A DNA stretch of 64,000 bases from Branchiostoma floridae (taxonomy: Eukaryota; Chordata; Leptocardii; Amphioxiformes; Branchiostomatidae), in assembly GCF_000003815.2 (NCBI RefSeq), contig NC_049989.1, positions 20,397,127-20,461,126 of the forward strand, written 5' to 3'. Shown one piece after another: positions 30,456 through 62,540 of this stretch. Position 1 is the first letter of the stretch. Every line of letters starts with the position of its first letter. The notes under the pieces were generated by a model. That model was not told the origin of the DNA, did no database searches, and saw only the letters and a list, made by a program, of their open reading frames with translations. A program made the position numbers and the translations under genes.

Positions 30456-33408
30456 TGCAGACTCGTCAGTGTTGTGTGTTCCTCAGCAGCCTGCACCACA
30501 GCCTGGAACCCTGCAGGCTCCATGGAGATGTACCCCAAATACAGCTGCTTCAAGGCCAGGAGTTTTGGCAGAGCCTCGGCCAGAGCCATGGCAGCGGTGT
30601 CAGGCAGGTGTGTAGGTGTGTCCGGGCAACGACACATGTCCAGAAAGGTCAATGCTGGCAGTGCACTGAGGAGCTGTGCGACCCTCCCCAGTCCAGCTCC
30701 TGTTACCCTCCTATTGAGCCCGATATGCAGCTCCCGTAGTGTGGTATTACAGTGAGAGGCTATGGCCAGACTCTTGTCACCAGGTGGGTTTAGTTCCGTG
30801 TCCAAACTGCTGGGCTGGCAGAGTGTTTGCACCAGTAAGATAATCCCTGTGTCCCCTATGTTATTGCATCTCACATCCAACACCTGTAATTGCACCAGGT
30901 AAGGCAGAGCTTTGATCAGGGATGATATTCCACTGTCACTGATACCGGTCCCAGTGAGATCCAACACCTTCATGACTGTGAGGTGGTGGAGGATAGCAGC
31001 CAGGCATTCAAGCCCGAAGTCTCCTATGGCATTATAACTAATGTCCAGTTTGATCAGCTTGGTTAGCTGACGCAGTGCAGGGACCAGTGTGCGCATGCCT
31101 GTGGGGCTGATACCGATGCTACACAGGCACAACACCTGCATGGCTGTGAAGATGGGGAGGATGGTGGTGAGAGATTTTCGCCCAGTGTCACCGATCTCAT
31201 TATAACTTATATCCAGTTCTTTCAGCTCCACTAGGTGGCGCATGTAGGGAGCCAGGGACGTCATACCCACAGCTGTCATGTTGACTCCCCAAAGACGGAG
31301 TACTGTCAGGTGTGGAACATTGGACAGCCCAACCTGCAGGACTTCCATCCCAGCATCACGAAGGTCATCATTCGCAGTAAGATCCAGCTCCTCTAACAGT
31401 GACATGTGGCTGAACCCCTGCACAAGTGGCTGGAGCGATGATGGTGTTAGGTCTGTTTGTGCCAGACCCAATACCTTCAAACCAGGAACATTCTTCAGAA
31501 CTGAAACCAGCCTGGTTGTCTTATCAGGTGAGTTAAACTCATTGCACAGATAGTACTTTCAAATTGATAGTTTCAGATCTAATTCAAGTCCAGGAAGTTG
31601 AGTTGTAAAACACTGCTGTAGGTACTGAATTGTGTCTCTGTTGCCATTGCTTCTGGTATAAGCCTTAAGTATGAGCCTGTCTGGCATCTTTGCTGAATGA
31701 AGATTTTGTATGTAATACTTCAGAGCTGTGGCTTCTCTACTGTTAATGGAGCTGTCCAGGATGACAATAGGCAGGGCCTGACTGATGCCCTGAAGCACTT
31801 CCGGTTCTCTTCTCTCACTAAGGATGGTCAGGCACAAGGATGCAAACTTTCTGTAGGATGGGCAGGAATTTTCCATGTCTTGATCCATGGGAACATTTGA
31901 ACATTGAAAATGATCTGGTCGTATGTGTGTGAACTCTGTGCTGCTGAGCTTGCTCAGTTCCTCCATCACAGCTTGTGCTGCACGTGAGTCGCAGCCACAT
32001 GTGAACTGAAGCAGGTTACTGAGTTCCAGTGCCTTGGCTATGGAGGTGAGCTGCAACAGCTCTACAATGTCTTGGTTCACCAGAGCATGAGCAACATATC
32101 GTCCAGCCAGGAACTCTTGCATGGTCTTGTGTGGAAAATGCAACTGTTTCCTAGGATTTACTTTAGAGGAAGATAACCCAAGGGAGACCACACCCAGCTT
32201 TAGAAATGATTCCCAATTCAACTTTTTCTTCTCTACTTCTTTAAAATCAAGCAGGGTCTCATTCCTCAGCAGTGCCTCTAGCGCAAGCTTGCCGAACTGC
32301 AGTAGTGACTCAGCAACCTCTGTAGGCAATTCTTCTATTGACATGTCCACTCCTTCCCGCTTACAGAATCTTCTACTAGTAACCAGACATGTCAGCAGGT
32401 TGTCGTACAGCCCCGTCATTGTTCCTGTAGACACCTTCTTTTGGTCCTCTTCCCACAACACACAGAGGAACATCAGGAACATTGGGATCTGGATTAGATT
32501 ATTTAGAAGATTCTCCTCATCATCATCCTCCAGGACCTCCTCCTCTTCCTGACTGCCAAAAGATGATTCATAACTATGTCCATAATTGTCATCGTAGTCA
32601 TCATCATCATCATCATCACTAGTGAAGTACTGCTTGATGAAATCCTCTGCCAGCTTAGGATTTTTGGTGCTTGAGAAATATTTCCTCACATATTTTACTA
32701 TATGTTCAGGTGAGAAGCCAATGACATGTATGCAACAGTCTGGCCGGGTGTGCTGCTGCACTCCTGCTGTGGGTCGGGAGGTGATCACAATTGTGCTGTT
32801 GGGGTAAAACTTGCCTGACAGCAGTTTGGGAATGGCCTGCCCAGCTGCACTGGCCTCAGGTCGCAGCTCATCATACCCATCTAGGAGGAAGAGCACACGA
32901 CACTCGTTCTTCTGTAGAATTTTTCTGATGGATTGTACATCAATACCTTCAGCTGTTTCAGGAACACACTGGTCCCACACCATCTCCTCTATGGTCTCCC
33001 CCTCTTTCACCTCCCGAAGTCGGATCAACAAGACCAAGTCATGTTGTTTGCCCAGCTCTGTTTTCTTTGAGATGGCATCTAGGGCTTCTTTGGACAGAAA
33101 TGTTGTCTTTCCCCCTCCGGCTTCACCTTCAATCAGAATGCACCTTGGTGCTGTGCTCAGTCCTGTGACATCTGGGTTGAACAAGTCATCTAATGACTTC
33201 AGTTCTTTCCTTTGCTCTTCTTGCACTGATGGGGACCAGGGATGTTCTTTAGGCCTGTGCCTTTTGAGCTGTTTTTCACTTGTTGGTACCAACTCTAACT
33301 GGGTGAAGACATCACTGAGGGTAAGCGTGAAGTTGTCATTCCAGATCAGAGGCTTAAAGTGAGACAAATTCAACTCATAGTACTTCTTCACAGACTTGCT
33401 TAACACAT
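30456..33408 (-). other. NACHT-LRR exon of gene B
   Basis: This single 2953-bp exon carries the whole sensor body. The upstream acceptor is cttctatttcag|A at 33408; the downstream donor is CTGCA|GTGAGC at 30456. It is strongly similar along its length to the gene C exon 42009-39357. It differs by an acidic insert (about 32620-32500, DDDDDDDYDDNYG then EEEEVLEDDDEE), by a longer segment before Walker A (KRHRPKEHPWSP) and by the in-frame TGA at 31559-31561. Confidence 0.85.
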
Positions 33409-33419
33409 CTGAAATAGAA

Positions 33420-33949
33420 GAGTGTCAAAGGACACTGTTGTAAGATTTTAATGTCCAAGGTAGTGAGGACATAACTCAGGCAAAGTGCAAAGACATCACA
33501 TACTGTAGATGCAGTTAATTTTGTGGGGATTTAATTTTGCAGTAGCGGGAAAAAGGATTTTTCGAGGTGGTTTTAATTTCACTGTAGCCTGTGCACTGTA
33601 GTCTCTTACTGCCATTGAAAAATGTTTGCAGTGGTTTTAAGTTCGCGGTGAAGCGGCCACCGCGAAAACCGCGAACATTAAACAACTGCGGAGTTTGTGC
33701 ATTTACAGTATACATTTTATATATTATATAGACAGAGGATAAACTTTGTCAGCTTGAACTCTGATACTTGCAGTAGTTTTTGCCATCCTTTTCAGTAAAT
33801 GTTATTCTGCCCAATTTTCTGCTACGGCACATAAACCATTCATTGAAAGTTTAACAGTAATTGTTACAGGATCTTCAAACTTATATGAGATGTCCCATAG
33901 CTATAATTTCTAATATGAATTTAATATCATAGTTCTGTCAGAATCATAC
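33420..33949. other. Gene B intron
   Basis: No exon. About 33730-33775 is homologous to intron positions 42105 and 23440 of the sister genes. About 33505-33715 holds an unassigned repeat-like block with ccgcgaaaaccgcgaac. Confidence 0.4.
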
Positions 33950-34184
33950 CTGTCAGTGAAGAAGACTCAGTTCCTGTAGCTCCAACTGGAAGAGAACAGA
34001 GGAAGGACTCATGTTATGTTTTTCAGAACATTAGTAAGCAATATTTTACAACAGGTTCAGTGATTTAAATTGACTTTCTAACTTTTACGGGGGAATTAAA
34101 CAGAGCAGAAGATCTAGATTCTATCAAAAGTTTTTAACCCTCTTTTACAGCATTTTGATACTTCATTATTCTTCTGCCAGGAAT

Positions 34185-34353
34185 TAAGGGCTCGGTAGTC
34201 TGATCGATTGTTTATGGCGTTTAGTATTAATCTTAATCTGCTGTCTTTATTGTATTTTTATGTCGGGGCGAGGGCCAGTAAAGGTGTCACCACCTGTTCC
34301 CCCGCCCCTTCCACTTGTGTGGTGAATTTTAATAAACAAATAAACAAAAAGAC
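34185..34353 (+). mobile_element. LINE 3' end in gene B intron
   Basis: An untranslated tail with ttgtatttttatgtcgggg, a block ccttccacttgtgtggtgaa and a terminal aataaacaaataaaca tail closely resembles the 3' end at 7980-8093. It is a 5'-truncated non-LTR insertion in the sense opposite to the gene. Confidence 0.6.
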
Positions 34354-35884
34354 TACCGGTATTCTTTAATCCTGCAAGCCTTCAAAAATATAACATAAAA
34401 TAACTCATCACTCACTCTCTCCCTGCCTCCGCATGCTCCGGGAAGGAGCATAAAATATGAAAGAATAAAAAGGTACATCGTGTCATCTTAGTGACTTTTA
34501 AGTACTGTATAAGAACTGTATAGAACTATATACCATATACGTCATCTCTCACCTCCCACTGATGATGCTTCCTCTAGATCTCTAGAAGGAGCTGGTTTCT
34601 TCTTCACAGGAGACTCTTCTCCATCCTCTCGCCTCCTCTTCTGCTGGCTGGTACAGGGTTGGGATGAAGCTGTGTCAGAGAGATGTGTAATTTATTCATT
34701 TTACATAATGTGAGACTTATTTTTGTGTTATTATTGTGAAACAGGTAAGGCTGGCTGTGCCAACGAGAACAAAAGAACAATATTAAGCAAATTATCTAAT
34801 TTTGGAAAATAACAATTAACATACCGCCAATACTGATTTTCACATCAACATCAACATCTTTCTAGTAACTCCATAGATTAGGCCCTAAGTCTTCTTACAA
34901 GTTACATGAATGTTTTATTTCCATCTTTGTGTGTTTTGGGCAATACTTACTTAATAAGTTTTCATTGTTTTGTCACTGTCAATGTCCTATACATAGGTAT
35001 GTTTATAAAATGTATCACTCTAGATACCCTCTACTACAACTACAAGTACTTACTAGTAGTCATGTAATCACAATGGTGTATCAGATATACAGCAGTAATG
35101 TTTTTCTATAGTATGAATGATGCATAAAACAAGAATTTCTACCTTCCTCACTTGTTTCTTTGGCAGGGACGATGGGTTGACTGCTACAAGATGCTGCAGA
35201 CACTGAATTTCAAAAAAAAAGTATGATTGCATTAATCTAATGATAAAGACAGCATGTCCAAGCTTTCAATGTCATCATCACAATGTACTGTCCATATTTT
35301 CATGTCTAAAATACTATATAGCTAGTAACTAATGTGGCTGGGTTATGTGCCAAAAACATTTAAGACACATATCATAAACTGGACTGCCAACTCGACCAAC
35401 ATCATGGTAAGGACATGTGCTTCCAGAAGTTAATTAAGATATTTATTTACATTACTCCATTACCATATAGCATGACAGCATTATGCCTACAGTAAGTGCT
35501 TTCACTACAGCATGATTCATACCGGGTGCCTGTAAGTCCTACATTATGACTGTTGCAGAATTTTACCATACCTTTCTTTTCATCCTCAGCAATCTTCTCT
35601 GCCTTGTGAGCATAATGATTCCATAATCACGTCTGCTGATTTTTCTTAACAGGTCCACCAGAAGGGTGAGATCTCCCGGCTTTAACTTCTGTTCTTTCTC
35701 CAGTTGGATACAGATTTCGTGAGCATTGGCGTGTTGGACAATTCCCGCTGGTAAGATGTTTGCACCACTGACGTAGTTACGGAGATCTGTTAGTTCTCGA
35801 TCTACAAGGTTCTGGGATATCTCCAGGTACAGATCCTGGCGAGGATTGGTCACCATTTCAAGAACTTTGGAGTCAACATCAACT

Positions 35885-35995
35885 AGCCAGGTGTGTGTCA
35901 GGTATGTGGTAACAGCACCTGAAACAGACAGATGTGTGTCAGGTATGTGATAACAGGACCTCAAACAGACAGGTGTGTGTCAGGTATGAGGTGCA
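35885..35995 (-). repeat. Splice-acceptor minisatellite (gene B)
   Basis: Two to three units on the minus strand read acacacctgtctgtttcag then gtgctgttaccacatacc, the same family as 25945-26165. The copy reading ctgtctgtttcag|GTGCTG near 35920 could be an alternative acceptor upstream of the tag at 35884. A short upstream ATG at about 35877 lies out of frame with the DED start. Confidence 0.6.
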
Positions 35996-37589: not shown

Positions 37590-38600
37590 CCCCACAGTTC
37601 AACAAAAGGTTACTTCTTAGGACCTCTGACCTAATACCACTGTAATTGACCCCTGATCTTTGACCTGTCACCTGCCTATACTTCTCCCTGAAGTGGTTTT
37701 CTAACTGCAGGAGTTTCTGGTAGGCTGCTCGTAGAACTGCTCGGCTGTCGGCAGGTCGATGTCCAGTTTCTCCCTGTCCACGTAGGCCGTCCCCCAAACC
37801 TTACACCTGCTGGTATACTTACACAGGGGGTCCAGACTGGAGGGCACCTGTGGTCCAAATATCTCACACCTGCAGGTGTACCTAGATAGTCCTGATTGGA
37901 GGGCAACTGTAGGGACAGCCACACCTGTAACAAACACACCTGTTAGCACACCTGTGGTCCCCCACACCTTACACCTTCTGGTGTACTTACACAGGGGGTC
38001 CAGACTGGAGGGCACCTGTCGGGACAGCCACACCTGTAACAAACACACCTGTTAGCACACCTGTGGTCCCCACACCTTACACCTGCTGGTATACTTGCAC
38101 AGGGGGTACAGACTGGAGGGCACCTGTCGGGACAGCCACACCTGTAACAAACACACCTGTTAGCACACCTGTGGTCCCCACACCTTACACCTGCTGGTGT
38201 ACTTGCATAGGGGGCACAGACTGGGGGGCACCTGTCGGGACAGCCACACCTGTTAGCACACCTGTGGTCCCCACACCTTACACCTGCTGGTGTACTTACA
38301 CAGGGGGTCCAGACTGGAGGGCACCTGTCGGGACAGCCACACCTGTAACAAACACACCTGTTAGCACACCTGTGGTCCCCACACCTTACACCTGCTGGTG
38401 TACTTACACAGGGGGGTCCAGACTGGAAGGCACCTGTCGGGACAGCCACACCTGTAACAAACACACCTGTTAGCATAACTATGGTCTGCACACCTTACAC
38501 CTGCTGGTGTACTTACACAGGGGGTCCAGACTGGAGGGCACCTGTCGGGACAGCCACACCTGTAACACACACACCTGTTAGCACACCTGTTAGCACACCT
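37590..38600 (-). repeat. Eight-unit ~108-bp minisatellite plus C-terminal exon remnant (gene C side)
   Basis: Unit landmarks (g/tccagactggagg variants) fall at 37830, 37888, 37999, 38106, 38214, 38307, 38416 and 38524. Periods are mostly 107-111 bp, with one 58-bp and one 93-bp unit. On the minus strand most units hold tttgttacag|GTGTGGCTGTCCC and CCCCTGT|GTAAGT, an acceptor and donor 43 nt apart. The innermost unit reads directly into VWGTAYVDREKLDIDLPTAE and QFYEQ; one base short, the frame then continues YQKLLQLENHFREKYRQV. This looks like an exon whose 5' edge was amplified in tandem. Confidence 0.75.
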
Positions 38601-38750: not shown

Positions 38751-41700
38751 TCAGAAGTAAATCATCATCATCTGCTTCTGTATCTTCATGAAGTTCAGGC
38801 AGCTGGCTGTGGTGTCTGCTCCCTCAGGAAATAGTTCCTCAGTGTAGCTGTGTATGGATAAAGAAATAACTTAGTTACATTAAATCTCACTTTAACAGCA
38901 GGATCTACAAAATAATCCATTTGGTGCCAAATAGGTTAATGCACACTTGAGGTTGGAACATACATGTACCTTTTGGATGTTTGTTGTGGACCAGAGTTAT
39001 GCACCTCTTCAGTATAAACAAGTAACAGGGTACTACTACCAAGGACATTACTACTACATTGTAGAACAGGCTGGTGTATATAGGTACACCTATCAATAGT
39101 GCAAATATAGACTTTACCAGTAGTACCAAGCATATAGTTTGCTGAAAAATTGTTGAAATAACATGCAAGCCAGTCAGGAAATACATGCCACTAACTGTTG
39201 ACTTAAACACTAAGTAACAGTACTTCCAGGTTAGCAAACCCTTCTGTATTCTGTTTGTTATCTCAGTGTCCATTTGGCTAATCTCAGTGTCCATTTGGCG
39301 AATTTTTCCACCAACCTAAGTAGAGTGTAGTAGAGGCTAGTGCAAATGTAACTCACCCCAGGTTCTCCAGTGTTGGGTGTTCCTCAGCAGCCTGCACCAC
39401 AGCCTGGAACCCTGCAGGCTCCATGGAGATGTACTCCAGGTCCAGCCACTCCAGGGCAGGGAGTTTGGGGAGAACCTCGGCCAGGGCCATGGCAGCGGTG
39501 TCAGACAGGTGTGCAGGTGTGTACCTGCAACCAGACATGTCCAGCCTGGTCAGTGCCGGCAGTGCGCTGATGAGCTGTGTGACCCTCCCCAGTCCGGCTG
39601 CTGTTACTCCACTATTGAACCCAATGTCCAGCTTCTGTAGTGTGGTGTTATAGTGAGGGGCTGTGGCCAGACTCTTGTCACCAGGTGGGTTTTGTTCCAT
39701 GTCCAAACTGCTGGGCTGGCAGAGTGTTTGCACCAGTGAGACAATCCCTGAGTCTCCTATGTTATTGTACCACACATCCAACACCTGTAATTGCACCAGG
39801 TGAGGCAGAGCTTTGATCAAGGATGATATTCCCGTGTCACTGATACCTGTTCTATTGAGAACCAACACCTTCATGGCTGTAAGGTGGTGGAGGTTGGCAG
39901 CCAGACATTGCAGCCCACGGTCTGATATGAAATTTCCATGAATGTTCAGGTATCTCAGTCCAACTAAGTGTCGCATGATGGGAGACAGATATGATATGCC
40001 CACATCTGTCATGTTTAAGTTCATAAGACGGAGTATAGCCAGGTGTGGGACACAGGACAGCCCAGCCTGCAGGACTTCCATCCCAGCATCACTAAGGTTT
40101 GGGTTCAAAGAAAGATCAAGCATCTCTAACAGAGACATGTGGCTGAACCCCTGCACAAGTGGCAGGAGTGATGATGGTGTTAGGTCTGTGTGTATCAATT
40201 TCAGTACCCTCAGACCAGGGACATTCTTCAGAACTGAAACCAGTCTGGCTGTGACATCAGGTGAGTCATACTGTCCTGATGGTGAGTCCACCTGTCCTGA
40301 TATCAAATTCAAGTCCAATCTAAGTTCAGGTAGTGAAGTTGCAAAACACTGCTGTAGGTACTGAACAGTGTCTCTGCTGTCAGAGACTCCCTGAATGTCA
40401 ACTATAAGCCTGTCTGGCAGGTTTGCTGAATGAAGGTTTTGTATGTAATACTTCAGAGCTGTGGCTTCTCTACTGTTAATGGAGCTTTTCAGTATGACAA
40501 TTGGCAGGGCTTGGCTGATACCCTGAAGCACTTCTGGTTCTTGTCTCTCACAAAGAATGTTCAGGCACAGGTTTGCAAACTCTTCATAGGCTTTGCAAGA
40601 CTTTTGCGTGTCTTCAAAATGCTCTGGTTGCACATATGCAAACTCTCTGCTACTGAGAATACTCAATTCCTCCATCACAGCTTGTGCTGCCCGTGAGTCA
40701 CAGCCACACGTGAACTGAAGCAGGTTACTGAGTTCAAACACCTTGCTTATGGAGGTGAGCTGCAGTAGCTCTACAATGTCTTGGTTCAACAGAGCATGAG
40801 CAACATATCGTCCGGCCAGGAACTCTTGCATGGTCTTGTGGGAAAAGTTCAGCTGTTTCCTAGGATGCAATTTGGAGGAAGAAACTTCCAAAGAGACCAC
40901 ACCCAGCTTTAACAGCAACTCCCAATTCACATTTTCTCTTTGTACTTCTGTAATATCAAGCAGGATCTCATTCCTCAGCAGTGCCTCTAGCGCAAGCTTG
41001 CCGAACTGCAGCAATGGCTTAGCAACCAGGTCTGTAGGCAGCCCTTTTGTTGGCATGTCCACTCCTTCCCGCTTACAGTGCTTTCTAACCAGACATGTCA
41101 GCAGGTTGTTGTACAGCCCCGTCATTGTTCCAGTAGACACCATCTCTTGGTCCTCCTCCCACAACACACAGACCAACATCAGGAAAATTGGGGTCTGGAA
41201 TAGGTTACTAATATCTAAGAGATCCTGATTTTTAAAAAGTACTTTAACATCAATTGCCAAAGGCCTATGATTTCTTATGACTGTGAAATATTGCCTGATG
41301 AAGTCCTCTGCCATGTCAGCATTTCTTATGAAATATTTCTTGACATATTTCACCATATATTCAGGAGAGAAGCCCCTGATGTGCACATGGCAGTCTGGCC
41401 GGGTGTACTGCTGCATTCCTGCTGAGGGTCGAGAGGTGATCACAATCGTGCTGTTGGGGTACAATTTGCCAGACAGCAGTTTGGGAATGGCCTGCCCAGC
41501 TGCCCTGGCCTCAGGTTGCAGCTCATCATACCCATCTAGGAGGAAGAGCACACGGGACTTGTTCATCTGTAGGATTGTTCTGGTGGATTGTACATCAATA
41601 CCTTCAGTTGTTTCAGGTACACACTGGTCCCACACCATCTCCTCAATGGTCTCCCCTTCTCTCACCTCCCGAAGTCGGATCAACAGAACAATGTCGTATT

Positions 41701-44700
41701 GTCTGCCCAGCTCTGTTTTCTGTGATACGGCATCTAGGGCTTCTTTGGACAGAAATGTTGTCTTCCCCCCTCCGGCTTCACCCTCAATCAGAATGCACCT
41801 TGGTGCTGTGGACAGTCCTGTGACATCTGGGTTGAACAAGTCATCTAATGACTTCAGTTCTTTCCTTTGTTTTCCAGCCATTGTTTGTATCAACTCTAGC
41901 TGGGTGAAGATATCACTGAGGTTAAGTGTGAAGTTGTCGTTCCATATCAGAGGCTTGAGGTAACCCAGTTTTAACTCAAAGTACTTCTTCACAGACGTCT
42001 GGAACACAGCTAGAATAGAAAGGACACTGTGTAAGATTTTAAACTCAAACTTAGCAAAACTCACTCAAACACAAGCAAAGTGAAAGGACATATTTCATTA
42101 CATATCAGAGGATAAACCTTATCAGCTTGAAACTTTTTAAGAGGAGTAAAAGGGCACTCTAGAAGCTAGTGTTATTTTCTGATAGAGAATACTTTTGGGG
42201 ATACAAATTTGCCTGACTTTTGGCTAAATTACCTCATCTGTCTGATAATCCTTTTGCAGAATCCAAGTACCCCCATACAGTCCCACTTTTAGTGTACTGT
42301 GCCGTTTATGATTTTGACTGCATAGCCGACTTCCGTCACATGCACTTTCCCGAATGTAAAATGGCATTGCCAAAACTGCTTGTGTGACCGACGTCGGGAA
42401 CAATTTCTCGCTAATGGTAGGGTTGCTAAGCTAATGAAAGCAGCCAAGTGACTATCAGATATGTAGGAAGGTACTGATACCTCTTCCTCTTGTCAGAGTC
42501 ATGTCCTCCCCCACCAGTGCACAATGCATTGTAAGGATCCTAAGGGGAATTCAAGAACTTGATGTTCGCCCTGCGCTTAGGTTTTAACTTAGAGTCAGTG
42601 AAATACCCCGTTAAAGAGGCCATCTGCATTAGAGACTATCAGCCATCCCTTGGCTTAACTGAGACGGGCGCCAATACCAACTGCTGGGCACCTTTGACCT
42701 CTTGATGATGCCATTCATGTGACTTTGGGTCATTTTATTGGGAGAAGGGTCAGAGAAGGGATGGAAAGCTTGTTGATATTGTGTATGGAAATAACACGCT
42801 TGTTTATTACCATGATAACAATAACAATAGAAAGGGACAGTTTAACCTTAAGAGATGTAGCGTACTGTTTTGTTTTGGACCTACCAAGAGAGGGGGTGCT
42901 CCCAGATGGTGCCTCCAGCTTCTGTTTGACTTCATCAACAGAAAGCTTGATTTTTTTACTTTGGTTCTTTACGTCACTGATTTCTTCATCAAGCCGTTTG
43001 TTGTCAGTCTTGACCTCTTCAATTTGTTTATCGTGTTTAGCCACTACCTCTTCCAGTTGACCCACGGCACCTCTCACGTCTGTGATGTCCCCTTCTGCCT
43101 TCCCTAGTCTGTCCTGGATTTGCTGTACTGTGGTGGACAGCTCCAAGGCCTGGTCTTTTAGGGCGCGGTGCAAGCCAGTGTTGTTGTTTACAATGCCCAA
43201 CAGGACCTCCACTGTCTTCAGCATCTGCATTGAATACAGGCAGAAATGTTTTTGAATCCCTACTCTGTACATAATCCCTACTTTGTACATAAACTAGAGC
43301 TCTACAAAAATGTATATGCATTGTATAATGTAATATTACTTTCTGAGAAGCACAGCAAGGACTACAAGTTTATACCTAGTACCACATATTAAATCTGCAG
43401 TCATGAAGTTTGCCAACCCCAAAGAGATTGACAAACATGCTTGGTCAGTCTGTGTTGCCATTTGTTTTCATCTGACTCAGAGATCCAGAAACATTACTGT
43501 CAAGCAACATTCCGTAAGTCACTCAGTTTGCCATTTTCATCTTAAGTTGCAGTTTTTTGCATTTCTCATAAGATAACATACCTCTTTCTTTGGAAGTGCG
43601 GTGTGCTCGAGAGTGTCCAGCCGGGCCCCATGATCCTCCAGCTCTTCCCTGTACAGCTGGAGCTGCTTCTTGTGCTCACTCATGACATGCTTGAACACAC
43701 GCACCTCAGCATCCATGCAGGCTTTGTTAGCCCCAAGGTGGAACTCCTCTTTCTTGAGCTAGCAGAAAAACACAAATACAGTGAACTCCAGTTCATTGGA
43801 TTTCGGCTTCTTGGATAATTCGGGTAATTGCATAGAATTACGAAATCCAAAACCATTTGACATTCATTCTATTGTATAAGACTTTGCAGAATTGAATAAC
43901 CAACCGTCTCAAACTTCGGGTTTATGGATAGGATTACGTTGACTTATGCTGAATAAGAATGGGAAAATATACGCTAAAACTTACAAAATGATGCCAAAAT
44001 TACTCAACAACTGTATGTATGAAGGCATAAAATCATTAAAAGGACCGTTAGAAAGGTAAATTCCACCGAACATATTGCCGATACCGCTGTGGTAGCGTGC
44101 AAACATTTGTTTAGGCGCCATTTTGTTAAGTTGCCGCAAGGCATGATCGGTGAACGTCGTGGGAACGTTGATACGCTTTTGAGTTCATATTTCACCTTCA
44201 GACAACTTCTAAACTTGGTTTACCCTCCAAAAATGTCCACTGTCTCAGTATTGAGTTGATGTCGGCTGCACTACGTAGATTTTAACACAGCGCACACGCA
44301 ACAGGGGTCAATGAACTGTGAAGTCGCAATCTGCTGTATTGAATGGCGGGATATCTCAACCCACGCTGCAACGCCATTTTAAATATTTTTTGAATTTTTT
44401 CCGTCTTCCGCCGCAAAAGACCGCATCGAGTTTGAAATTTCAGCGTAATTTGTGGACACAACTTGTAAAGAAGAAGGTGAAGAGCTTATCTCTCCAATAC
44501 CTACCGTCATTTTGCTCAAAATTGCGAAATCAACATAATTTTTTCCGGCATGTATACAAGCGGAGTTGTGTTTGTCTTTGTTGTGGTTCATTTAGTTACC
44601 CCCTCGGCAGTGCGAGTCAAGCGTATTTTTCTACATGTTCATTTAGCCACCGACTTAAAAAACCTTTAGTAGATTAATTATCGCATGTAACTTGAATGTA

Positions 44701-47700
44701 TAATATCGGAACATATAATTATGTGAAGCTTGGAACTGGAATCTGTTCGATCTTTTGCTGGACACATTTCATTATTTAGTGATGTTATAGATTCAAACAG
44801 TTGATGTTCCATTCGTGCATGTAAAAAAGAAAAACAGTACTGTAGGTTAACTACTGCGGTATCGTGATTTAGAATACTGCTCTTGATGAACAAATGGCTG
44901 ATTAAAAATTTTTGTAAATGAAGTAAATCCGTATCGTGTGTGTGGGGTTTGTGTCTTTGTACAGTGTAGTAATCCTATATTCGCCCCCCCCCCCCCTCCC
45001 TTCGGGGCGTTAGTGGCCCAACTTCGGACTGTTGGATACTTCGGACTACTGGATAAAATGCGCTGACAAATGAGCTATCCAAATAAGCGTATTCTACTGT
45101 ACAACCAAACCAGACCAATTTTTTTAAATGCAAGAATTTTACAGTGTGGCTTTTGTGGTGAGCATCTCAAATTCACACACACTGCAAATAACATGTCACT
45201 GTATAACAGAAATATTGTAGCCACATATTAAGAAACACTCCTTACAAAATCACCATAAAATTTAAAAATTGAATTTACGGTATTGAACATAAGGTCAGAT
45301 CAAGTATCTGTATTCTGTATACTAGTGCATAGACGGTATAACACTCTTCAGTGTAACACACCAAATTCGCAGGCACGCAGTGTGGCAGCCACTGGTTATA
45401 CATTGTGCTATGCTGAATAACCTGTCATAACTACGATCCAAGACACTAGAATTATCATTTATTTAGATCTCCCAGACAGTTTTAGTCCCACCTTTGTAAT
45501 CTCCTTTGCTGCCTTCTGTGCAGCTGGATCTGAGGCCAATTTTGGATCACACATCAGACTCCGCAGTTTTTCCATGTGATTATTAAACGTGTCACGGTCA
45601 AACGTCAGGTCCAAGGAATGCATGGCTTGGTTGCGGATTTCTATAACCTTGAAAAATACAAAGAAGACATTTCTGGTCAGAAGAGTGGTTAGATATGCAC
45701 TCTACCATCAAATAGGGATTCTACAGAAGCTAACAATCAGATAAATGACAATATACACGTACTGTTACAGTAAATGTCTTGGAGTTTGCGTTAGTTTCAT
45801 TTTGAGGTAAGGAGAAAATGTACTGTTTGTGGTGGATTTAAGCTTGCGATAATGCTTGTGAAAGCCAAAGTACATTAAAGAATAAAAAAAATTAACTATA
45901 TCAAAGAAAATATAGAACACCGTTGTTGTTGTTTTTTTAGAATTTCCAACACAGGCCACTCAACAAGCGCTTGAGGAGACCTAATCAAGTATCAACTAGA
46001 AAGTTTAAAAATAGCAACAATTCACACCAAGGAAATGACCTACCCTTTGTGCACTTTTAACATTTACATATTTGTGGCAAAAGGTGCAGTGTACAAGGAA
46101 GTTCAGGAGTGCCGAGGGATCCGACATCTCAGGTCCTGTATTCTCAGCTGCCTGACTCTTAGGCATCTTCAGCATGAACACCTGGAGATTTGGAGGAAAA
46201 AAAATGGACACAAAATGGTAATTGGAAGGAATCATTTGCAAGCAAATACACACATTCAATTTGATGTTTACCTCCACATGGACATTTGGTGCTAACGTCA
46301 GTTGATGAGCGAATAAAGGCATGGGTTCTAGAGTGCCTGTTTGATGACAACAGCAAGCGGACAGAGGGCATTTCGGGTGTTGGAACACAATTCCTTAATT
46401 CGCTCATGTGTAGGAACTAGGGGTGGGTACTGGTACAGCAAATTCAGGTCCGGTTCAGGTCCAGAGGATCAGGTCCAGGTCCGGACCTGAACCTGGACCT
46501 GATGCAGAATGACTCCATACCGATGGTCCATTATTTTCACTACAAAGAAATCTGTTTGGTGGAGTATTAGACTTACACTGGTGTTTGAAAATCCTACAAT
46601 GCTCTAAACTGCACCTGTACGATTGGCTGTAAAACCTGGTAGAAATTATTATCAACTCTACTCTACTTCACTCGTTATTTTCTTCCACCTGCAAGCACCA
46701 AAATGTGTGAATGCCTGATGAAATAATCTGTTAATTTTCTAATCGGTCCAACATCTGGTCCACCTAATTTTTTCAGGTCCAGTTTTTCTGGACCGGTCCA
46801 ATAACAAAAACCGGTTTTGTACCGGTACACTGTACTGATACCCAGCCCTAGTATGAACCAATTGGCAACCTCGTCCAAAGATTCGATACACGATTCTGGA
46901 CGTTAACGTGGTCAAGGTTCCCAGACAGAACAGCAGAGAAGCAACTAACATATAATAGTAGTACTATGATAAATGTCAGAGCGAGAAGGGACTGTATGTA
47001 TAATTAATGGAAGAGCTAACTACTTTCTGGATGGTACTCAGGCTACTTAATTTTATCACCTACGTAGGCAGGAAAAACCAACACAGGACAAAAGAAATTG
47101 GAAACAAGCAGGGCAACTAATGTAATGTCAATTATCCAGTAGGCCATCCAATGATTTTCATAACTTGATAGAATGGCAGACACTAAAGATTAGTTGTGAT
47201 TTCCCTAACTATAGCAACAGTACTCAAAGTGCATTACTCCCAAGTATGTCTGTCTATAAAGAAATACAGGGATCAAAAACTAGGAGTTGAAAGCATCCTT
47301 CTTTTATTCAATTTATCTAGAGACAAATTGATTATTCATTACACAAAATGATATATATACCTTTGCCACTTCCCATGGTTCCTTGCTCCACTTGCTGGGA
47401 GTGCAGTTGGTCCAGCCGATCCGGTCTGCATCACCAGTGTAGTGCTTTTTCAACTCTTGTCGCCATGCACAGTGCTGAGACAATAAATATAATTCATACT
47501 GTAACATCCATTGGCATAATACCGGTCGGTTTACTGCAATTTCTCAAGCAATGCTAATTTGGCAAATGATCAACGCATCATTTTCTCCAGTTACATGTTG
47601 CTGTTACAGCTTACCTTTGCCACTTCTTCTGTGTAAATTATTTTGTCTCTCTGGTCCTGCTAAAAACATAATATCGTAATTGGAACACACCGCGGAACTG

Positions 47701-50700
47701 CACGGAGAACAGGCGCGTGGTTGGAAGGGGGTGCACTATACCGGCCGAACGAAACACGGCACAATTAACTGCCGCTATGTACCTTTATACATCCTCTGTT
47801 GTTCCTTTCTTTCCTGTTAGTAGTTGCACAAAACAAAAATCTGCATGAGCATACAAAAAGTCATGAGAAAATGGGCGTATACTGACAAGAATTTTCATTT
47901 AATTTTGGTCCGTCACAACCGCTATGACGTAAAACTTTACTGCTGGCCGTAGCATTAAAAATGGCGGGAAAATGGCGGCGTACGTTCAATTTGACCCATT
48001 CAGCCGTAGATCCGGGCGATAATGCAGCGGTTCTTCACACTTTTACACGAGTTGTTGGTCACCAAAAGAAATTCAAGATTGCTGTTGAATCATGCTCGTC
48101 TTGTGCCGTGAGCACATGTGATTATTATCTACAAATCTGGCGATGAACGTGACAGTGTGTTTGTCCCACGACGAGCTCGCCTGCCCCGAAAATGATCTGA
48201 AAACTTTTGGCCTTGTTGTCTTCGAATGCATTGTTATCGATGCTTTGTAAATTATGTATTGGACACCTAGATGTCTGAAGTGTGCATACCTCAGAAATAA
48301 CTATTGTTGCATGTGTAGATCTCTTTAAGTTCCACTATTTTTAATCGACCGGTATAAGGCTTATGACCGGTATTATGCCAATGCATGTTAATGACATATA
48401 TCAGCAATTTGGGTTCCTGTGTTGAAGTTGCATTAGATAGTTACTTTAATGCTGGCTTTTGTGCCTTCTAATCAGGTTGTTAAAATACTTTTTCCTTTTG
48501 AAATAACTGCCTCTAATGTGTGGATTTTTTCGGTGATCTTTCCTGGCTTTTTAGCACTTATCAAACCATTTTTAGGGTTCCTTTTTAATCCTCATCTTTT
48601 TCTTGCCTCTCATTTACTATGACATTTTGCATGCCTGCATTTAAGCATTTTGAAGTTGGCACACAGTTTTATTTTGTCTTTGCTTTTGACAGCCATTTTC
48701 ATCTTAAGATATAATTTTTCTCTTGGAAATTGTAGAACTATTAATAGCGCCCTTGTTAATTTATCGCTAGAGTCTGGACCCAAGAAAAATGAATGATCTA
48801 GAGGGTTCAGAGAAATCACCCAAAAATTCTGTCATGGACATTGATGTTGTGAAACAATGAGCTGTATTTATTAGGTTGTCATCTGTCATTCAAGTTAGCG
48901 AGGATTCTTACGTTTAATCAATGACAAGGACAAATTTTTGGGGGTTGTTCTGAAAGCCAAAATCGTTTGCCACATGCAGGCACATGTGGGCACATATCGT
49001 TACATCTACGTTCTTAATCTTATTGAGTCCATGTTTGTGATTTATTTCCAGATCACAAACTGTCAGGGAAGGGGAAGACCACCTTTTGGGCAACGTGACC
49101 AAAAATACTACAGATCAGCTACAAAATGAGCAACTACATGCCATAAAATGATAAATTTCTAAAATGGACAATATATCATCGATTCCAACATCAAAGAAGA
49201 TAATATTATGGAAAACCAAAACTTAAGCTATTGTTTGGTATACCACACTCTGAATGTTAACTTAAAGTCATTTGTTCAACCTTCCTGACTACATAGATTC
49301 ATAATGAAGGCAACTTTTTTGGCCAAACTTTTTTCTTTCACACCCTCACACCAGTTTGGGGTCCCCAGCCAATGTCATACATAATCAAATCAATATTCTT
49401 ATAGATGATGATGAGTCAGGAAATGTGGGTCAATAAAACAAAATGCTGAGAGGTACACTCTACCCAACCGGTGCAATGGCCTAGTGGGTAGAGTGTTTGC
49501 CTTGCATTCGGTAGGTCGTGAGTTCAAACCCCGGCCGAGTCATACCAAAGACTTTAAAAATGGTACATACTTCTTTCTCTGCTTAGCACTCAGCATTCGG
49601 GAAAGAGTATGGAAGTTGAACACACACCACTACCAGTGGACTAGCCCCCTGCTGTAGTGATTGCGTTGTGTGGCCCAAGGGCTACTGAAACGGAGATGGG
49701 CGCCGCCCTATGCGCCATCAGGCGCGGGAAGGAACTTTGACTTTGACTTTGACACTCTACCCAGTCACATCACACAATTGAACCCACATGCATTCAAAGG
49801 GAAAATCTGGTCTTGGACAAAACTCATAGACATAAAACCTTGTCCATTATCTCATGGTGGTAACCTTTAGATAGACTTCTGTAAAATGCATTACCTCTGA
49901 CCTCCACAAAACTCAAGATATGATAACTTAGGCCATCTATGTATATGTATGATATAATATGATAATGATGTTATTGATTTATACTAATTGATTGATTGAC
50001 TTTATATGTGTAATGCAAATGTTTAATGATTTATGCTAATTGACTGATCGACATTATATGTGTAATTTACTGTAATGTATTTTATTGGATTGTATGTAGC
50101 TATAGAGGACTTCAGGAAGAATAGTTTGATGTATTTAACTTGAAATGGAGATTCCTAATAACACAAACAAACAAACAAACAAACAAACAAAATATTGATG
50201 ATAAATTAATCATTACTAGTTAGCATATGTAGTAATTTCAGGGCAATCAGGGCAGATAAGAGACGTATCCAATTTGCATGACTATATGAGATTGTTACTT
50301 GCCTCGCATTCTTCGCGTTTTGGGTTGCTTTTGTGGTTACAAGTGCACTTTCCTATACTGTTTCCAAGCTCAGCTTTGAGGAGCTCTGCATGTAGGTCCT
50401 TCGCTGCTTGCAGTGTGACATAGCTCAGTCCATGCCGGATGGCCAGCAGGGCTAACCCCACCCGCAGCCAGTTCTTGTACTCCGGGTTATTAAATCGGTC
50501 AGTCCAGCTCATTCTGTCCTCCTGTGGGCCAGGGTCAATATTCCGTTACTTTTGCAGTTAGTTGTCCGTACAGCTGTTAAGCCAGGTCAACTATCTGTAA
50601 CATACCAATAATGGCAGTGGTTCTAAAAAATAGAAATTGGAAAACAAAAAAATCATCCTGCACTCTGAAACTGCAAAGCATTGGACAAATAAGCCCCCTC

Positions 50701-55920: not shown

Positions 55921-57491
55921 TTAACTCCCTTTGCAGACATATGTTGGCAGCGCGAGCCCGGTGTACACGGTGACTTCTCCCTTCCCCACGTCGAAGGCGG
56001 GTCGGACCGGGTCCTCGAACTTGGCGTGGAACGTGTAGATGTGTTCCTTCTTCATGGGGTTGTAGAAGGACAGCGTGCCGCCTGTGTAGTTCAGCAACAC
56101 GCCAACCCTAGGGAGGCGGTAAGTTAGAGTTAATGAATGAAGAAATTTATTGCGTATTGCCGCACTGGACTTAGTACAGGTCACAACAAGAGTTCGGAGA
56201 CCCCATAACTCCAATAGATATCTTCTTTTTTTTTGCAAAATTGTATTTTACAATGATCAAAAACGAACGAATACGGATGTGTAATTCAGCAGCACACCAA
56301 CTGCCCTGTGGAAATGGCATATGAGAAGTATGCATATAGTATACGAGAGGTGATCAATACGTTCTGTGCCTCACCGAGACAAATGGCACAAAGCTCAAAT
56401 TTGGGGACATAATCATAGAGTATAAAAACTTATCAATATCCACCAAAGTCGGGACCTCATATACCTGAGAGGCAAGCATCGTTGAAAGGAGAGTGATTGT
56501 GCCATCTCTTCTTCTACATATAACCTCCGTGGTATGAGTGCTCGACAAGGTTTGAGGGGTAAGGTTTACTTAGTTTTAATTAATCTTGAAAGGGCAACTT
56601 CTCAGAAAGCCACCAGTACCTTAGCTTCCTCTACATTTACCTGTTCTGTGTGAGCGCCAATGAGAGCTGTATCGCTATCTCTGTATGTATGAAGCACATA
56701 TTAAATTACTACTAGAAGTTACTGCTTGTAGTTCTGTACCTGTTCTGCACGGGCGGCAGTGAGAGCTGTATCACCACCCCCGCGTGCAGCGCCGAGTACT
56801 CGTGCAGGTACCGGTCCACGCACCACGACGTCTCGTTCTCGCCCAGCGCCTGGTCTCGCGGGAACTTGTCGGACGCCACGCCCACGCGGTAGAAGATGCT
56901 TCGAGAGACGTCCACCTGTAGAAGGTTAAGATAGTTAGCCTGAGTACCATCCTCCGTAGTGACCTTTGGCTCAATACTTCTGCTTGCTAATATGTGGTTA
57001 GCAAGCGAAAGTATGAGCCAAAGTCAACCAGTGAGGATGGTACTCAGGCTAAAAAAATAGCCTAATTTTGACAACACTAAACTTTATCCAACCGACACCA
57101 ACGAAAGTTGAAACTTGCCCAAATTTTCGGCTAACGGGATGGACCCCATTCACTGCAGCTTTCGGGACGTGACGTAGGTACCACGTGACCGAAGCAACGG
57201 GTCATAAGTGCCAGGTAATCTATGTCAACCCCGTCTTTTCTTCGGTGTTGGACGGTGTGCTCGAATGTACACACAGCCTCCTTCACTCAAGAAACTGGAT
57301 ATGATTTTAGAAACTGTCAGACTTTTCAGTTAGCATCTACCACCTTTCGGTATAGTGTCACTGATCATTGTATCTGTGGATTTACCTGGATGCCTAATCG
57401 TCATCGAGGTTGTCTGAGTCTTTCTTACAAGAGGTTTTATACAATTGTTTCTCATTGAATTTCACTCTAGCGCAAAACACAAACACTCACA

Positions 57492-57528
<37 letters not shown>

Positions 57529-57532
57529 CCAA

Positions 57533-57563
<31 letters not shown>

Positions 57564-57728
57564 CACACACATACTGACACACAAACACAAAAACTCTCAC
57601 CTCCCAGTAGCGAATGCCGCTGGAGAAGCTGACATCTCCCACCGCGATGCTGTGCTTGCTGAAGCGTGTCGATGGTGCGACGGGTCGGCAGGCTGTCGGG
57701 GTCGCATACACACACGCACGGACGCACA

Positions 57729-57776
<48 letters not shown>

Positions 57777-60700
57777 CACACACACTTACTTCCCAGTAGT
57801 GGATGCCGCTGGAGAAGCTGACGTCCCCCACCGCGATGCTGTGCTTGCTGAAGCGGTTCGGCGTGTCGGCACACACATACGCACGCACACGCACGCACGC
57901 ACGCACACCCACCCCCCCCCCCCACACACACACACACACACACGCACACACACACACACTTACTTCCCAGTAGTGAATACCGCTAGAGAAGCTGACATCT
58001 CCCACCGCGATGCTGTGCTTGCTGAAGCGGTGGGGTGTATCGAAGGTGCGACGGGTCGGCAGGCTGTCCGGGTCGTAGCTCATCGTGCAGTTGTTGTTGG
58101 AGATGCGGATGTACTTGTGTGCCGTCTTCGGGTCCAGCTCGAACTGCAGCCCCACGCCTTTAAAAAAACGGGAGAGAGTGGGTGAGAAAATTAGTGAGTG
58201 AGGATTTTTTCTACCTAAACCACCACCCGCATAACAAGATCCGAAAGTCACTTCACGGAAGGCCAGAAGGCCACTCCAGGGCGAGGGTTTACATCTCTTC
58301 TCCCTAAGTTAGAAACATCATGATTGAGACCAGATCAATTGCTCATTAATAATAAGCTAATGAGCGGGTGGGTGGGTGAATGTATGATTGAGTGTACATG
58401 AGTGAGTGTATGCGTTAGAGAGTGTATGGGTGAGGGAAAGATGGTGAACGAAGCAGTAAGGAAGAAAGAGGACCAGAGTCACACAAATGAAAGCGGCGCG
58501 TCGGATTCGACTTTGGTCGAACAAATGAATGATTAAATGAATGAATGTATGGAATAGATTAAGACCGAATTGTACAACGTCACCCGTTGAGCCAGCACCA
58601 TAGAGGTTTGTTACCTTTTCGACTCTTTCTCTTGAAGAATCCCGGCAGCCTCTGCGCTAAAGACTGACGCTGGTTCTCTTCCTCTACAACTTCGGGTTCT
58701 GGACTACCTGCGGAGGTACAACATTTTTGTGAAGAAACTTCATTATACTAATACTTATACAATGTATTTGTATAACGAAATAAGCAAGCAATAGCTAACA
58801 TTCAATAGGTACACCATTGTTCAAACGTGTTAAATGGACCAAAGGCTCGCGAACTATATAGTATTGGAGTTTTTTCTCTGCGAAACAGGCAAGGTTCTAG
58901 ACTACTAGTATACCGATTTATAATAACTTAGGTGACCTTACCTCTCTGGAAGTCTAGTCTGATGAGTGTGTCTATGTACTGTGAGACGTCAAAGTCCAGC
59001 GGTGTCAGATGCTCGCTGGTGACGGGGTACAGGGATAAATGGTCCATAGCCTGGCCTTTCACCCTGGTGATACAGACAGAAAGGTAACGGTAAATGCACA
59101 GTACAGAAACTAATCCGTGGCCTGGCCTTTCACTAACAAAACAAAGAAAAGTGCGTATACCATGTCAACAAGTCACCTTATACAATATATAACTGGTCCA
59201 GTAAGTTGCCCTGTGTTCACCAATGATGATGACAAATCGGTCATCGTCAGTCATTTCCCTTCTCCAAACATTTCTGTACCTTTCTTTCCTCTCTCGTAAG
59301 ATATTTGACTTTGACTTTCCTCCCTCTACACTATTATTTCCTGCCTCGAACGGTATTTCCTCTCTTTATACTTTCTTCTCTCTGCACTCGTTCACCTTTT
59401 CTCTCGAAAGGCATTTCCTCTCCAAAACATGTGAAAATAACTTACCGGTCCTTAAGTGTCTTGGCAGTCTGGAATGACAGAAGAGAGAGAACCAATATCA
59501 TCGTGTGTTATACTTATGATGCAGGCATTTTCAACACGGGATCAAAGACAACAATTTTCAGAAAATTTGTAATATTGCAACCGATGCGATAGGATTGAAA
59601 CAGTCAGCTAAAGCACGTCTTGTTCAAGAAATGTCTTACAAATGTGAGGGATTGAAGAAACTACCTGAAGACATTTCGCCGGGGCACCCTTTTCCAGGAG
59701 TTCCTGAGCTGTGTCTAAAACCTCCTTGACCTTGTCCAGCTCCTGAGTACAGCTGGTCATCTGTTGGTCCAGACTTTCCCGCCTCTCGTCTTCTTCTCGC
59801 GAGATTTCGTCCAGCAGGGCGTTCTTCCGCTGCTGGATGACGGAGATGAGCGCATCGCAACCCTCCGTCACCATGTGCTTCCGCTGCGATGCGTTTGTCT
59901 GTAATCAACACGACGACACCTTTTTGCTTACACAGATTTATAATGTTCGATTCCACACAATGATTGTACAACGGTATAGTTTGCTTTCAGTATAGCAGAT
60001 TGTTTCACACGTTTACCATGTAGTTTCCTATAACTCAAAATGGCTCCGCCTCAGCGGTGTTGCCAAAATATCACCATTCGAATCGTGCACAATACCCACG
60101 GAGCTCCGAGAGTAGCGATTCGAATCGAACATATGAAAAAGTCCTTCTCAAAAGAAACCTTTTATCTCAGTTTGACTGTTCAAGATGTTGAATTCTGTGT
60201 TTGTTGTTTCCCTTAAGACTTTTATTTGCTGCAGTTCACCAACATTCTACTGCCATGACAGAAATAGTACATTTAAAACGTCAACTGGAGTCTACGATCG
60301 ACTGCGGTACCGGTAACACGGAAAGATCGAGAGTCTGAAACTAATACAGCATCAAGAAAAATGTAAATTGCACGCCTAAAGAAACGAAACGTGAAACGAC
60401 ACTTGTCGAAAGACAAGATAACAATCAACATGCGTGTTACGACCCTAGAGGTGTCATAATTATACCCTGGATATTATAGCTCCGAGACAGGTGCTCCCAA
60501 ATGCAACACACCTGCACTATCTCTTCCAAAGAACGTACCGTATAAGGTTGTGTTCGCATGTATTAGTATAAGGCCACTCTGATTTTGATTATATGGATGA
60601 CATCTTCTCGGATACCCAAAACTGATGCGAATAAAGAAGCTTATATACGTTGGTTTAAGATACGCAAACAAATAAAAACAGTATTCAGGGATATGACGAA

Positions 60701-61793
60701 CGGTTGTTTCAAATTGCAAAATTCTCAAAATATTGCCGTTTGAAACCTCCCTTCCGTCGGATTTGATATCCCTAAATACCCTGTATCGGATATAGCCGGG
60801 GTAGCCCGCGGATATCCGGATAAAGGTGAACTAGGCTAGCGTTGCGTGTACTCACCTCTACTCTTTCACTGATGGTCCGTAACTTCTCCATAAAGTTTTC
60901 CACACTCTCGGTTTTTGTTCTTAAGATCTCGATGTTTCTTGTGAACGCGTCCTTAAAGAAAGCAGGCCGAGAGTAAATATTGAATCAGCTGACAGTTAAG
61001 GGTGATGAGTGCCTAATCTCCAACAAGCGTCCAGATTTGTACGGTATTGTGAAATTAGCTACGGTATTGTGAAATTGGAGCCCTCAAACACAAAACCTTC
61101 TTGACCAGCTAAGAAATACGAAGTATATCCCACAAACACCAAGTTCACCTTAATTTCTAAGCAGATGTTGGAAACCGGAAATCTTGAAGATCGTGCAACT
61201 TGCCCTCCCAGAAGAAAAGGCGTCTTAAAACACTAGTCAAGGGCTGCGTCACAATATGAGTCAGCAAGACTGGATAGGTTAGAGTTCTAAAGTCCGCTTC
61301 GGGTTTCTTAAGTTGACGTTACCTTTCTTCTGGACCAAGCGTCTTCTAGTTGTAAGAGGGTGTGGTTCTTGTGGTCGTACGCCATGCACTTGTAGCAAAC
61401 AGGCCGCTCGCAGGGGTCGCAAAACATCTTCAGCTCCAGGGCCTCGTCAGCGTGGTCCTGGCAGGTGGGCACCTCGGGGCCCCTCGCGTGTGCCCCCGAG
61501 GACTGCGCCGCCAGCCTCCCCTGCTTGCACCGCTCCACCATCTGCTGTAGCACCAGGTTTCTCTGGAGAGAGTCCACGGATCGAACGACCACATCGTATC
61601 GACATTCCGGGCAGGGGAACATATGTACGCCGTAGGCCGTACCCCCACGGGATTCTATCAACCCCCTCACACACTCCCTACACAGGTTGTGACAGCAGGG
61701 CAGAAACAGCGGCTCCGAGAAGACATCCAGACACACCGGGCAGCGCAGCTCCTCCGGAAAATCCACCCCGTCAGGGCCCGACGCGGCCGCCAT
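55921..61793 (-). CDS. TRIM-type E3 ubiquitin ligase (RING, B-box, coiled coil, COS-like, SPRY)
   Basis: Exons: 61793-61323, 60951-60856, 59898-59665, 59468-59446, 59063-58942, 58707-58615, 58157-57964, 56915-56740, 56107-55921. Phases close to 531 aa. The start at 61793 has a strong context (AACATGG). RING ligands are C18, C21, C33, H35, C38, C41, C61 and C64; B-box ligands C111, H114, C125, C128, C133, C136, H141 and H144. Residues about 158-275 are coiled coil. The exon at 59063 encodes LTPLDFDVSQYIDTL, resembling the COS box of microtubule-linked class I TRIMs (MID, TRIM9/36/46). No FN3 domain follows; a basic linker (FFKRKSRK) leads to B30.2/SPRY (SSGIHYWEVDVSRSIFYRVG, VGVLLNYTGGTLSFYN). 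The RING implies ubiquitin transfer; the SPRY would select the target. Orthology is uncertain. Confidence 0.85.
56937..57050. mobile_element. MITE in TRIM intron
   Basis: A near-palindrome: agcctgagtaccatcct...aggatggtactcaggct with a second internal palindrome around tgcttgctaat/gttagcaagc. It belongs to the same family as 14579-14735. Confidence 0.75.
57480..57960 (-). repeat. (CA)n tracts with two partial copies of a SPRY exon
   Basis: Long CA/CG-rich simple repeats are interrupted at about 57784-57873 and 57600-57705 by near-copies of the 3' half of exon 57964-58157. Each copy keeps its donor (GGGAA|GTAAGT at about 57788, GGGAG|GTGAGA at about 57600) but lacks a clear acceptor. Copy 3 extends farther 5' yet has lost bases that break its frame (TRRTIDT then a shift). 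Confidence 0.75.
60565..60650 (+). mobile_element. MITE-like repeat, family 1
   Basis: aaggccactctgattttgat, then atggatgacatcttctcgg and caaaactgatgcgaataaag: the closest relative of the copy at 25250. It is in a TRIM intron. Confidence 0.55.
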
Positions 61794-61859
61794 GTTAGCC
61801 GACGAGTGGTAGTGCCTCCGCCCCCACTCATTCGGGCAGGCCTTTAACACAGTACACAC

Positions 61860-62540
61860 ACGGAGAGAGGTCAGGGCATGGAAAATAAAACGCTCCTTTA
61901 ACCAAATGTTGAACCAACACTATTGACACAATGCCGATTAAGGCACGCCTTCAAGACAAAAGCTCGGAGCAACAACAAAGAACTCACCTGCGATCTGACA
62001 CCTGTGGCCCGAGCTAGGCGCAGGTCGGGAGCAGAAAATACGCGCTCCATCTTTGAGACTCTCCCTTCTTACGACTGACTCCGGACGACGATAAGAAAAA
62101 GAAATTGTCCCCAAAGCTGTAATTTCCATACCTTTGTGTCGTGTTCATTTTGCATGTCGCACATTCTTTACTCCTCACTAACAAAACATTCCGCGACAAG
62201 TGCTTTCCATTCAAGCGACGGGTTTACGGTATGATAATGAAACGGTCCGCAAAATAGCTGTTATTTGAAACAATTTAAAGACTCTTATTGAGCATTTAGT
62301 CCGCGCTTCAAAGGATGTCCTGCATGACAGCTGACTAATTGTTCGGTAGTTTAGTAAGACCAATAAAAGGAAGACGGTTTTAATTTGGGGTGTCATTTAT
62401 TCTCCAGACAACTCTTGTGATAAAACCATGCGGTCCCGGACGAACTAAAACGTCTTATTAAGAAGGTGAAGAAAAAAAAACTCGTCGATAATTCCTTATT
62501 GAGTCTCTCGGGGCCTTACGGATCTGACTTAACTTGCGAT
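61860..62540. other. Upstream flank of the TRIM gene
   Basis: The TRIM promoter or an untranslated first exon should lie here or further out. No TATA box or shared element was recognised. No other gene is seen. Confidence 0.35.

Follow-up and report, generated by a model that had tools for sequence, protein, structure and literature searches.

The window analysed here, a stretch of 64,000 nucleotides from the amphioxus Branchiostoma floridae (NC_049989.1, positions 20,397,127 to 20,461,126), contains a minus-strand gene (window positions 50512-38751) predicted to encode a protein of 1294 amino acids. The order from N- to C-terminus is a CXorf38-family domain, a coiled coil, a NACHT domain and leucine-rich repeats (LRRs). 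The CXorf38 module occupies the position where sister receptors of the nucleotide-binding, leucine-rich-repeat (NLR) type hold a death-fold adaptor, and it carries an intact RNxxxH motif. We read the product, with a probability of about 0.55, as a cytosolic NLR-type immune receptor whose CXorf38-family HEPN domain would serve as an N-terminal ribonuclease (RNase) effector, activated by NACHT oligomerisation.

Gene structure and the CXorf38-family domain

The spliced model has eight coding exons, all on the minus strand, and was compared with two paralogs, A and B, described below. Exon 1 (50303-50512, residues 1-70) begins the CXorf38 domain and runs from ATG to GAG before a GC donor. Exon 2 (47361-47474, residues 71-108), bounded by AG and GT and in phase 0, agrees with the paralog alignment, completes C69-x2-C72 and contains the signature WTNC..KW...PWEVAK. 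Exon 3 (46044-46181, residues 109-154), likewise supported by the alignment, includes C140-x2-C143, and exon 4 (45492-45647, residues 155-206) holds the RNxxxH motif. The coiled coil starts in exon 5 (43582-43758, residues 207-265), which is 177 nt long in all three paralogs, and continues through exon 6 (42885-43224), which ends in phase 1. Exon 7 (39357-42009) encodes the NACHT domain, a helical region and the LRRs, and exon 8 (38751-38847) the C-terminal tail and stop; similar tail pieces follow the sister NLRs. Six of the seven introns are GT-AG. Intron 1 is GC-AG (donor GAG/GCAAGT), and only in the window gene, whereas the equivalent junction in paralogs A and B has GT. The 1294 codons contain neither a stop nor a frameshift, and the open frame crosses the junction of exons 6 and 7 with a phase-1 donor and a phase-1 acceptor.

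Residues 1-206 matched PF15112 (DUF4559, the CXorf38 family) with an E-value of 2.4e-41 and a score of 142.7 bits (cut-off 27), so that the CXorf38 homology proposed in an earlier note on this DNA was confirmed by profile search. When exons 5-6 were added the match reached residue 352, so that the coiled-coil part of the family is included; the span of residues 1-220 suggested in that note was too short, since the match runs past residue 220 into the coiled coil. The three signatures named there (NPEYKNWLRVG, WTNC..KW...PWEVAK and RNQAMHS) are all present in the window protein. We take PF15112 to be the family of human CXorf38 as well, and to our knowledge the human protein has no NACHT-LRR part. 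Pfam profile searches also found NACHT (PF05729, E 8.4e-24) and LRRs (LRR_6, E 1.8e-11) in the window protein, and a single predicted protein thus combines NACHT with C-terminal LRRs, as in NLRs. The proposed fusion of a CXorf38-like domain to NACHT-LRR is upheld by the open frame, the intron phases and the Pfam matches, and is repeated in paralog A. The domain is indeed encoded by several exons, four rather than the five phase-0 exons first described, the 42-nt second one having been dropped (see below).

The RNxxxH motif occurs once in the window protein, as RNQAMH at residues 159-164 (45635-45618), a candidate HEPN active site. From composition, 0.027 occurrences would be expected in 206 residues, and R159, N160 and H164 are invariant in 3/3 paralogs; together these rule out a chance string. 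The cysteines C56, C58, C69, C72, C94, C140 and C143 are likewise invariant in the alignment of all three. A zinc ribbon is named as an insert in the CXorf38 HEPN domain (PMC3710099, in the accessible passages).

Paralogs, the N-terminal slot and selection

We searched the genome (513,431,437 bases in 431 contigs) for further copies of the domain. A profile search gave 8 matches and a protein search 15, and both resolved into the same number of CXorf38 loci, three, each of which keeps RNxxxH. Paralog A (C11:21095414-21106573) lies on the same contig as the window gene, 0.65 Mb away, and has the same CXorf38-coil-NACHT-LRR order, with matching exon phases through the NACHT exon and 68% identity in the domain. 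In the region examined around it (C11:21086001-21126000), its frame ends at an early TGA shortly ahead of the point where exon 7 of the window gene is spliced to exon 8, although a similar tail piece lies further downstream. In paralog B, on contig C12, the CXorf38 domain and coil are followed by open frames on the same strand with double-stranded RNA-binding domains (dsRBDs); the three frames examined matched dsrm with E-values of 1e-8, 1.2e-8 and 2.9e-18. Judging from these open frames, a fusion of domain and coil to the dsRBDs is a likely candidate.

In each of the three paralogs the last coil exon has a phase-1 end. Coil exon 6 had only 3 genomic matches (40/40 candidates scored), and since these are the three CXorf38 loci, domain and coil appear as one module. 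The coils of the NLR-fused copies are 45-46% identical to that of paralog B.

Relatives of the NACHT exon comprise at least 81 matching pieces (from the best 76 of 112 candidates scored). In 30 members with at least 60% identity, the window gene and paralog A among them, we surveyed the N-terminal slot on the same strand up to 11 kb upstream; the Death-domain exon search scored the best 150 of 291 candidates. The slot held Death in 18 members and ambiguously in 1 more, DED in 3 and CXorf38 in 2, and nothing was found in 6. The 18 Death matches lie within 3.3 kb of NACHT, while the 19th, at 6.8 kb, is an exon already assigned to a neighbour. Two of the 18 are weaker, one spanning 52 of 86 residues and the other having 39% identity. 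A Pfam check of three exons gave Death at E 6.5e-16 and 3.4e-16, and DED at E 1.7e-7 and 31.8 bits, under the cut-off of 35.9. The six members without a match may have other domains, more distant exons, missed exons or no such module. The NACHT exon acceptor is in phase 1 in all six exons read, and this common phase-1 intron means that N-terminal modules can be swapped. The suggestion that the CXorf38 domain forms the effector end of an NLR is strengthened by the Death or DED that sister genes carry in the same slot. The RNA-cleaving or death-like output that the earlier note attached to this suggestion is a prediction.

The CXorf38 domain is under purifying selection. Compared with paralog A, the ratio of nonsynonymous to synonymous substitution rates (dN/dS) was 0.39 for the domain, 0.42 for the coil, 0.46 for residues 379-700 (NACHT) and 0.59 for residues 700-1290; compared with paralog B the domain gave 0.15, with dS near saturation (1.56). 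In the LRR stretch dN (0.138) was about equal to dS (0.152) against paralog A, and such fast-changing repeats fit a role in recognition. A receptor whose output is fixed would be expected to combine a more conserved domain with faster-changing repeats, as seen here, although a comparison of two genes is no formal test. The dS values against paralog A were 0.475 for the domain, 0.293 for NACHT and 0.152 for the LRRs, the intervals of the first two overlapping. This unevenness could reflect gene conversion at the LRR end, which we do not claim.

The element in intron 1 and neighbouring features

Intron 1 contains a transposon-like element of about 0.9 kb (47502-48390) with 26-nt terminal inverted repeats that are 96% complementary. 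The examined region of paralog A has two further copies, differing in place and orientation: one on the gene's strand, ahead of the start codon (83%), and one in a later intron on the opposite strand (88%). The 42-nt exon proposed in the earlier note (47615-47656, minus strand) lies inside this element and would split the conserved C69-x2-C72. At this place it has no counterpart in paralogs A and B, where exon 1 joins the next exon directly in phase 0, and the Pfam score of the domain was 136.7 bits with the piece and 142.7 without it. Joining exon 1 to exon 2 with the piece omitted gives the same C-x-x-C as in A and B. In one element copy the acceptor AG at the edge of the supposed exon is altered, and the other has a one-base deletion inside it. 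On this comparison of sequences, 47656-47615 is almost certainly not a true exon of the window gene and is best discarded, although the element may occasionally supply it as an alternative exon. The ends of the true exon 2 (47361-47372) and of the rejected exon (47615-47626) both read GAAGTGGCAAAG, followed by GTA, a chance agreement over 12 bases that lends the false exon its plausibility.

Beside the gene, in the same window, lies a sister NLR (30455-35979, minus strand), with a DED exon (35566-35979), a NACHT exon (31562-33424) and an LRR part (30455-31558). It has an in-frame stop (31559-31561) ahead of the LRR part and is possibly a pseudogene. Both NLR genes are followed directly downstream by a 108-bp minisatellite with a common unit (29539-29815 and 37897-38590), which was probably duplicated along with them. 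Further along the window, a Death exon (24968-25222, minus strand; C11:20422094-20422348) shares 91% identity with the Death exon of another gene in this NLR family; among the matches listed, about 30 kb separate it from the nearest NACHT exon downstream. TRIM-like exons occupy 57490-61919 on the minus strand, with a RING and B-box part (61311-61919) and a match to PRY that falls slightly short of the cut-off (57490-58308). The frame of the latter contains CA/GT-rich stretches and repeated starts resembling SPRY.

The proposed ribonuclease output and its alternatives

Fusions of CXorf38-family HEPN domains to NACHT have been reported for cephalochordates and cnidarians, together with the inference of an RNase and defence role (Anantharaman et al. 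2013, PMC3710099, in the passages accessible to us). Both the architecture and the functional idea have thus been in print since 2013, and the window gene is a well-documented case of something already known, sharing with those fusions the domain family, the NACHT partner, the inferred RNase and defence role and the lineage group. Human CXorf38, of the same family as the window domain, is named in that paper. A gene-level model, a paralog count and a comparison with Death and DED sisters were not found in those passages. Among the matches listed, it is the only openly licensed paper in whose accessible text both CXorf38 and NACHT occur, and DUF4559 and NACHT occur together in the corresponding text of one clam genome paper. 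An exon-level model, the intron 1 element and the slot comparison were not found in the accessible parts of the openly licensed literature, which cannot show that they are unpublished.

Like the window protein, the DZIP3/hRUL138-like HEPN-NACHT proteins, abundant in the pearl oyster (PMC9646362) and found in several cnidarians (PMC8260672), have an N-terminal HEPN domain; in the available text of these papers Rx4H is the commonest oyster motif, and other members have Death in the same place. Their HEPN domain belongs to a different family (PF18738), which was absent from the complete family lists at E-values up to 10 for the three CXorf38 domains. For amphioxus, proteins that combine Death or DED with NACHT were described in 2008 (PMC2575513, as far as accessible); they share the chassis of the window gene and have an adaptor domain where it has a candidate nuclease. 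No established biochemical role for human CXorf38 was found in the accessible openly licensed literature, and a 2025 paper whose title announces the first characterization of the protein does not contain the words HEPN, nuclease or domain in its main text, as available.

In the receptor that we infer, the LRRs would sense a ligand or damage as the trigger, the NACHT ATPase would oligomerise, and the coiled coil would bring the predicted HEPN folds together. The paired domains would then form a composite endoribonuclease site, and cutting of viral or host RNA would lead to a shutdown resembling that caused by RNase L. RNase L senses 2',5'-oligoadenylates (2-5A) through ankyrin repeats, and shares with this proposal the sensor-driven pairing of HEPN-type nuclease domains, a likeness of logic. 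The accessible passages of PMC3710099 assign the KEN domain of RNase L to the HEPN superfamily.

The HEPN assignment of the window domain rests mainly on that published work, in which CXorf38 is put in the Swt1-like HEPN group, listed as active, with a zinc ribbon inserted into the HEPN domain (Table 1, as available). The earlier note had matched RNxxxH to the HEPN motif; R159-N160-x3-H164, invariant in 3/3 paralogs, agrees with the HEPN pattern Rx4-6H, usually RNxxxH. The literature supports HEPN membership, while our own profile evidence for it is at noise level. Over residues 117-184, which take in the motif, paralog A gave a weak match to HEPN_Swt1 (E 0.0055; 17.4 bits, cut-off 27.5); this agrees with the Swt1-like placement and proves little. 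Deleting the cysteine insert raised its score from 17.4 to 19.2 bits and left the window protein and paralog B still without a HEPN match. The controls, with the N-terminal part reversed (18.3 bits) or the motif half alone (18.7 bits), came so close to 19.2 that the first helix adds almost nothing. Profile searches of NCBIfam and PHROGs gave best E-values of only 0.078 and 0.07, and of 96 and 127 pattern matches to bacterial or viral relatives of the domain none was confirmed by tblastn.

Several observations weigh against the RNase effector. The Pfam search yielded no HEPN match for either the window protein or paralog B. The PADLOC search gave a match of the window protein to Csf1, an unrelated CRISPR type IV protein, at E 0.0072 and 14.3 bits, which we attribute to chance; the HEPN_Swt1 value of paralog A is therefore at noise level and cannot be leaned on. 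When PDB was searched with a profile built from the three paralogs, no solved structure matched at E-values up to 10. Moreover, the slot normally holds partner-recruiting adaptors and not enzymes, so that by analogy the domain may recruit rather than cut. In the main rival, itself unlikely, HEPN and coil would form a homotypic adaptor that, on NACHT oligomerisation, pairs with a separate CXorf38-dsRBD protein, paralog B, which would supply RNA binding and cleavage. The Death and DED domains in the slot of sister genes are homotypic recruiters, and the C12 locus has the domain and coil ahead of dsRBDs. However, the NLR-fused copies retain an intact RNxxxH, for which a pure adaptor would have no use, and identity between their coil and the coil of B is no more than 45-46%. 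A HEPN domain that binds RNA without cutting it, making the protein an RNA-sensing NLR, seems doubtful to us: some motif-less HEPN domains probably bind RNA (PMC3710099, in the accessible part) and the family is also fused to dsRBDs, but here the motif is intact and conserved in 3/3 paralogs.

Two further explanations concern the gene itself. Broken members of the cluster, namely the sister NLR with its in-frame stop at 31559-31561 and paralog A with its early TGA, might suggest that the window gene too is decaying or non-functional. This is very unlikely given its 1294 uninterrupted codons and, relative to paralog A, dN/dS values of 0.39 (domain), 0.42 (coil) and 0.46 (residues 379-700). Least credible is a modelling artefact that joins two unrelated neighbouring genes, one made up of the CXorf38-like exons and the other of NACHT-LRR type. 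The CXorf38 domain and coil do adjoin dsRBDs instead of NACHT elsewhere, yet the frame is open over the phase-1 junction, and paralog A, with 68% identity in the domain, repeats the arrangement with matching phases through the NACHT exon.

The RNase effector thus remains our preferred reading. As a quite doubtful extension, HEPN and coil may have replaced Death or DED in a two-part system, in which the activated NLR would recruit or heterodimerise with the dsRNA-binding HEPN protein and direct cleavage to double-stranded RNA; HEPN would then be adaptor and enzyme at once. One genome holds a series in which related sensors carry Death, DED or CXorf38, and in which the CXorf38-coil module is followed by NACHT-LRR or by dsRBDs. 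Such a series would make the predicted RNase output of the amphioxus receptor testable by comparison with its sister receptors.

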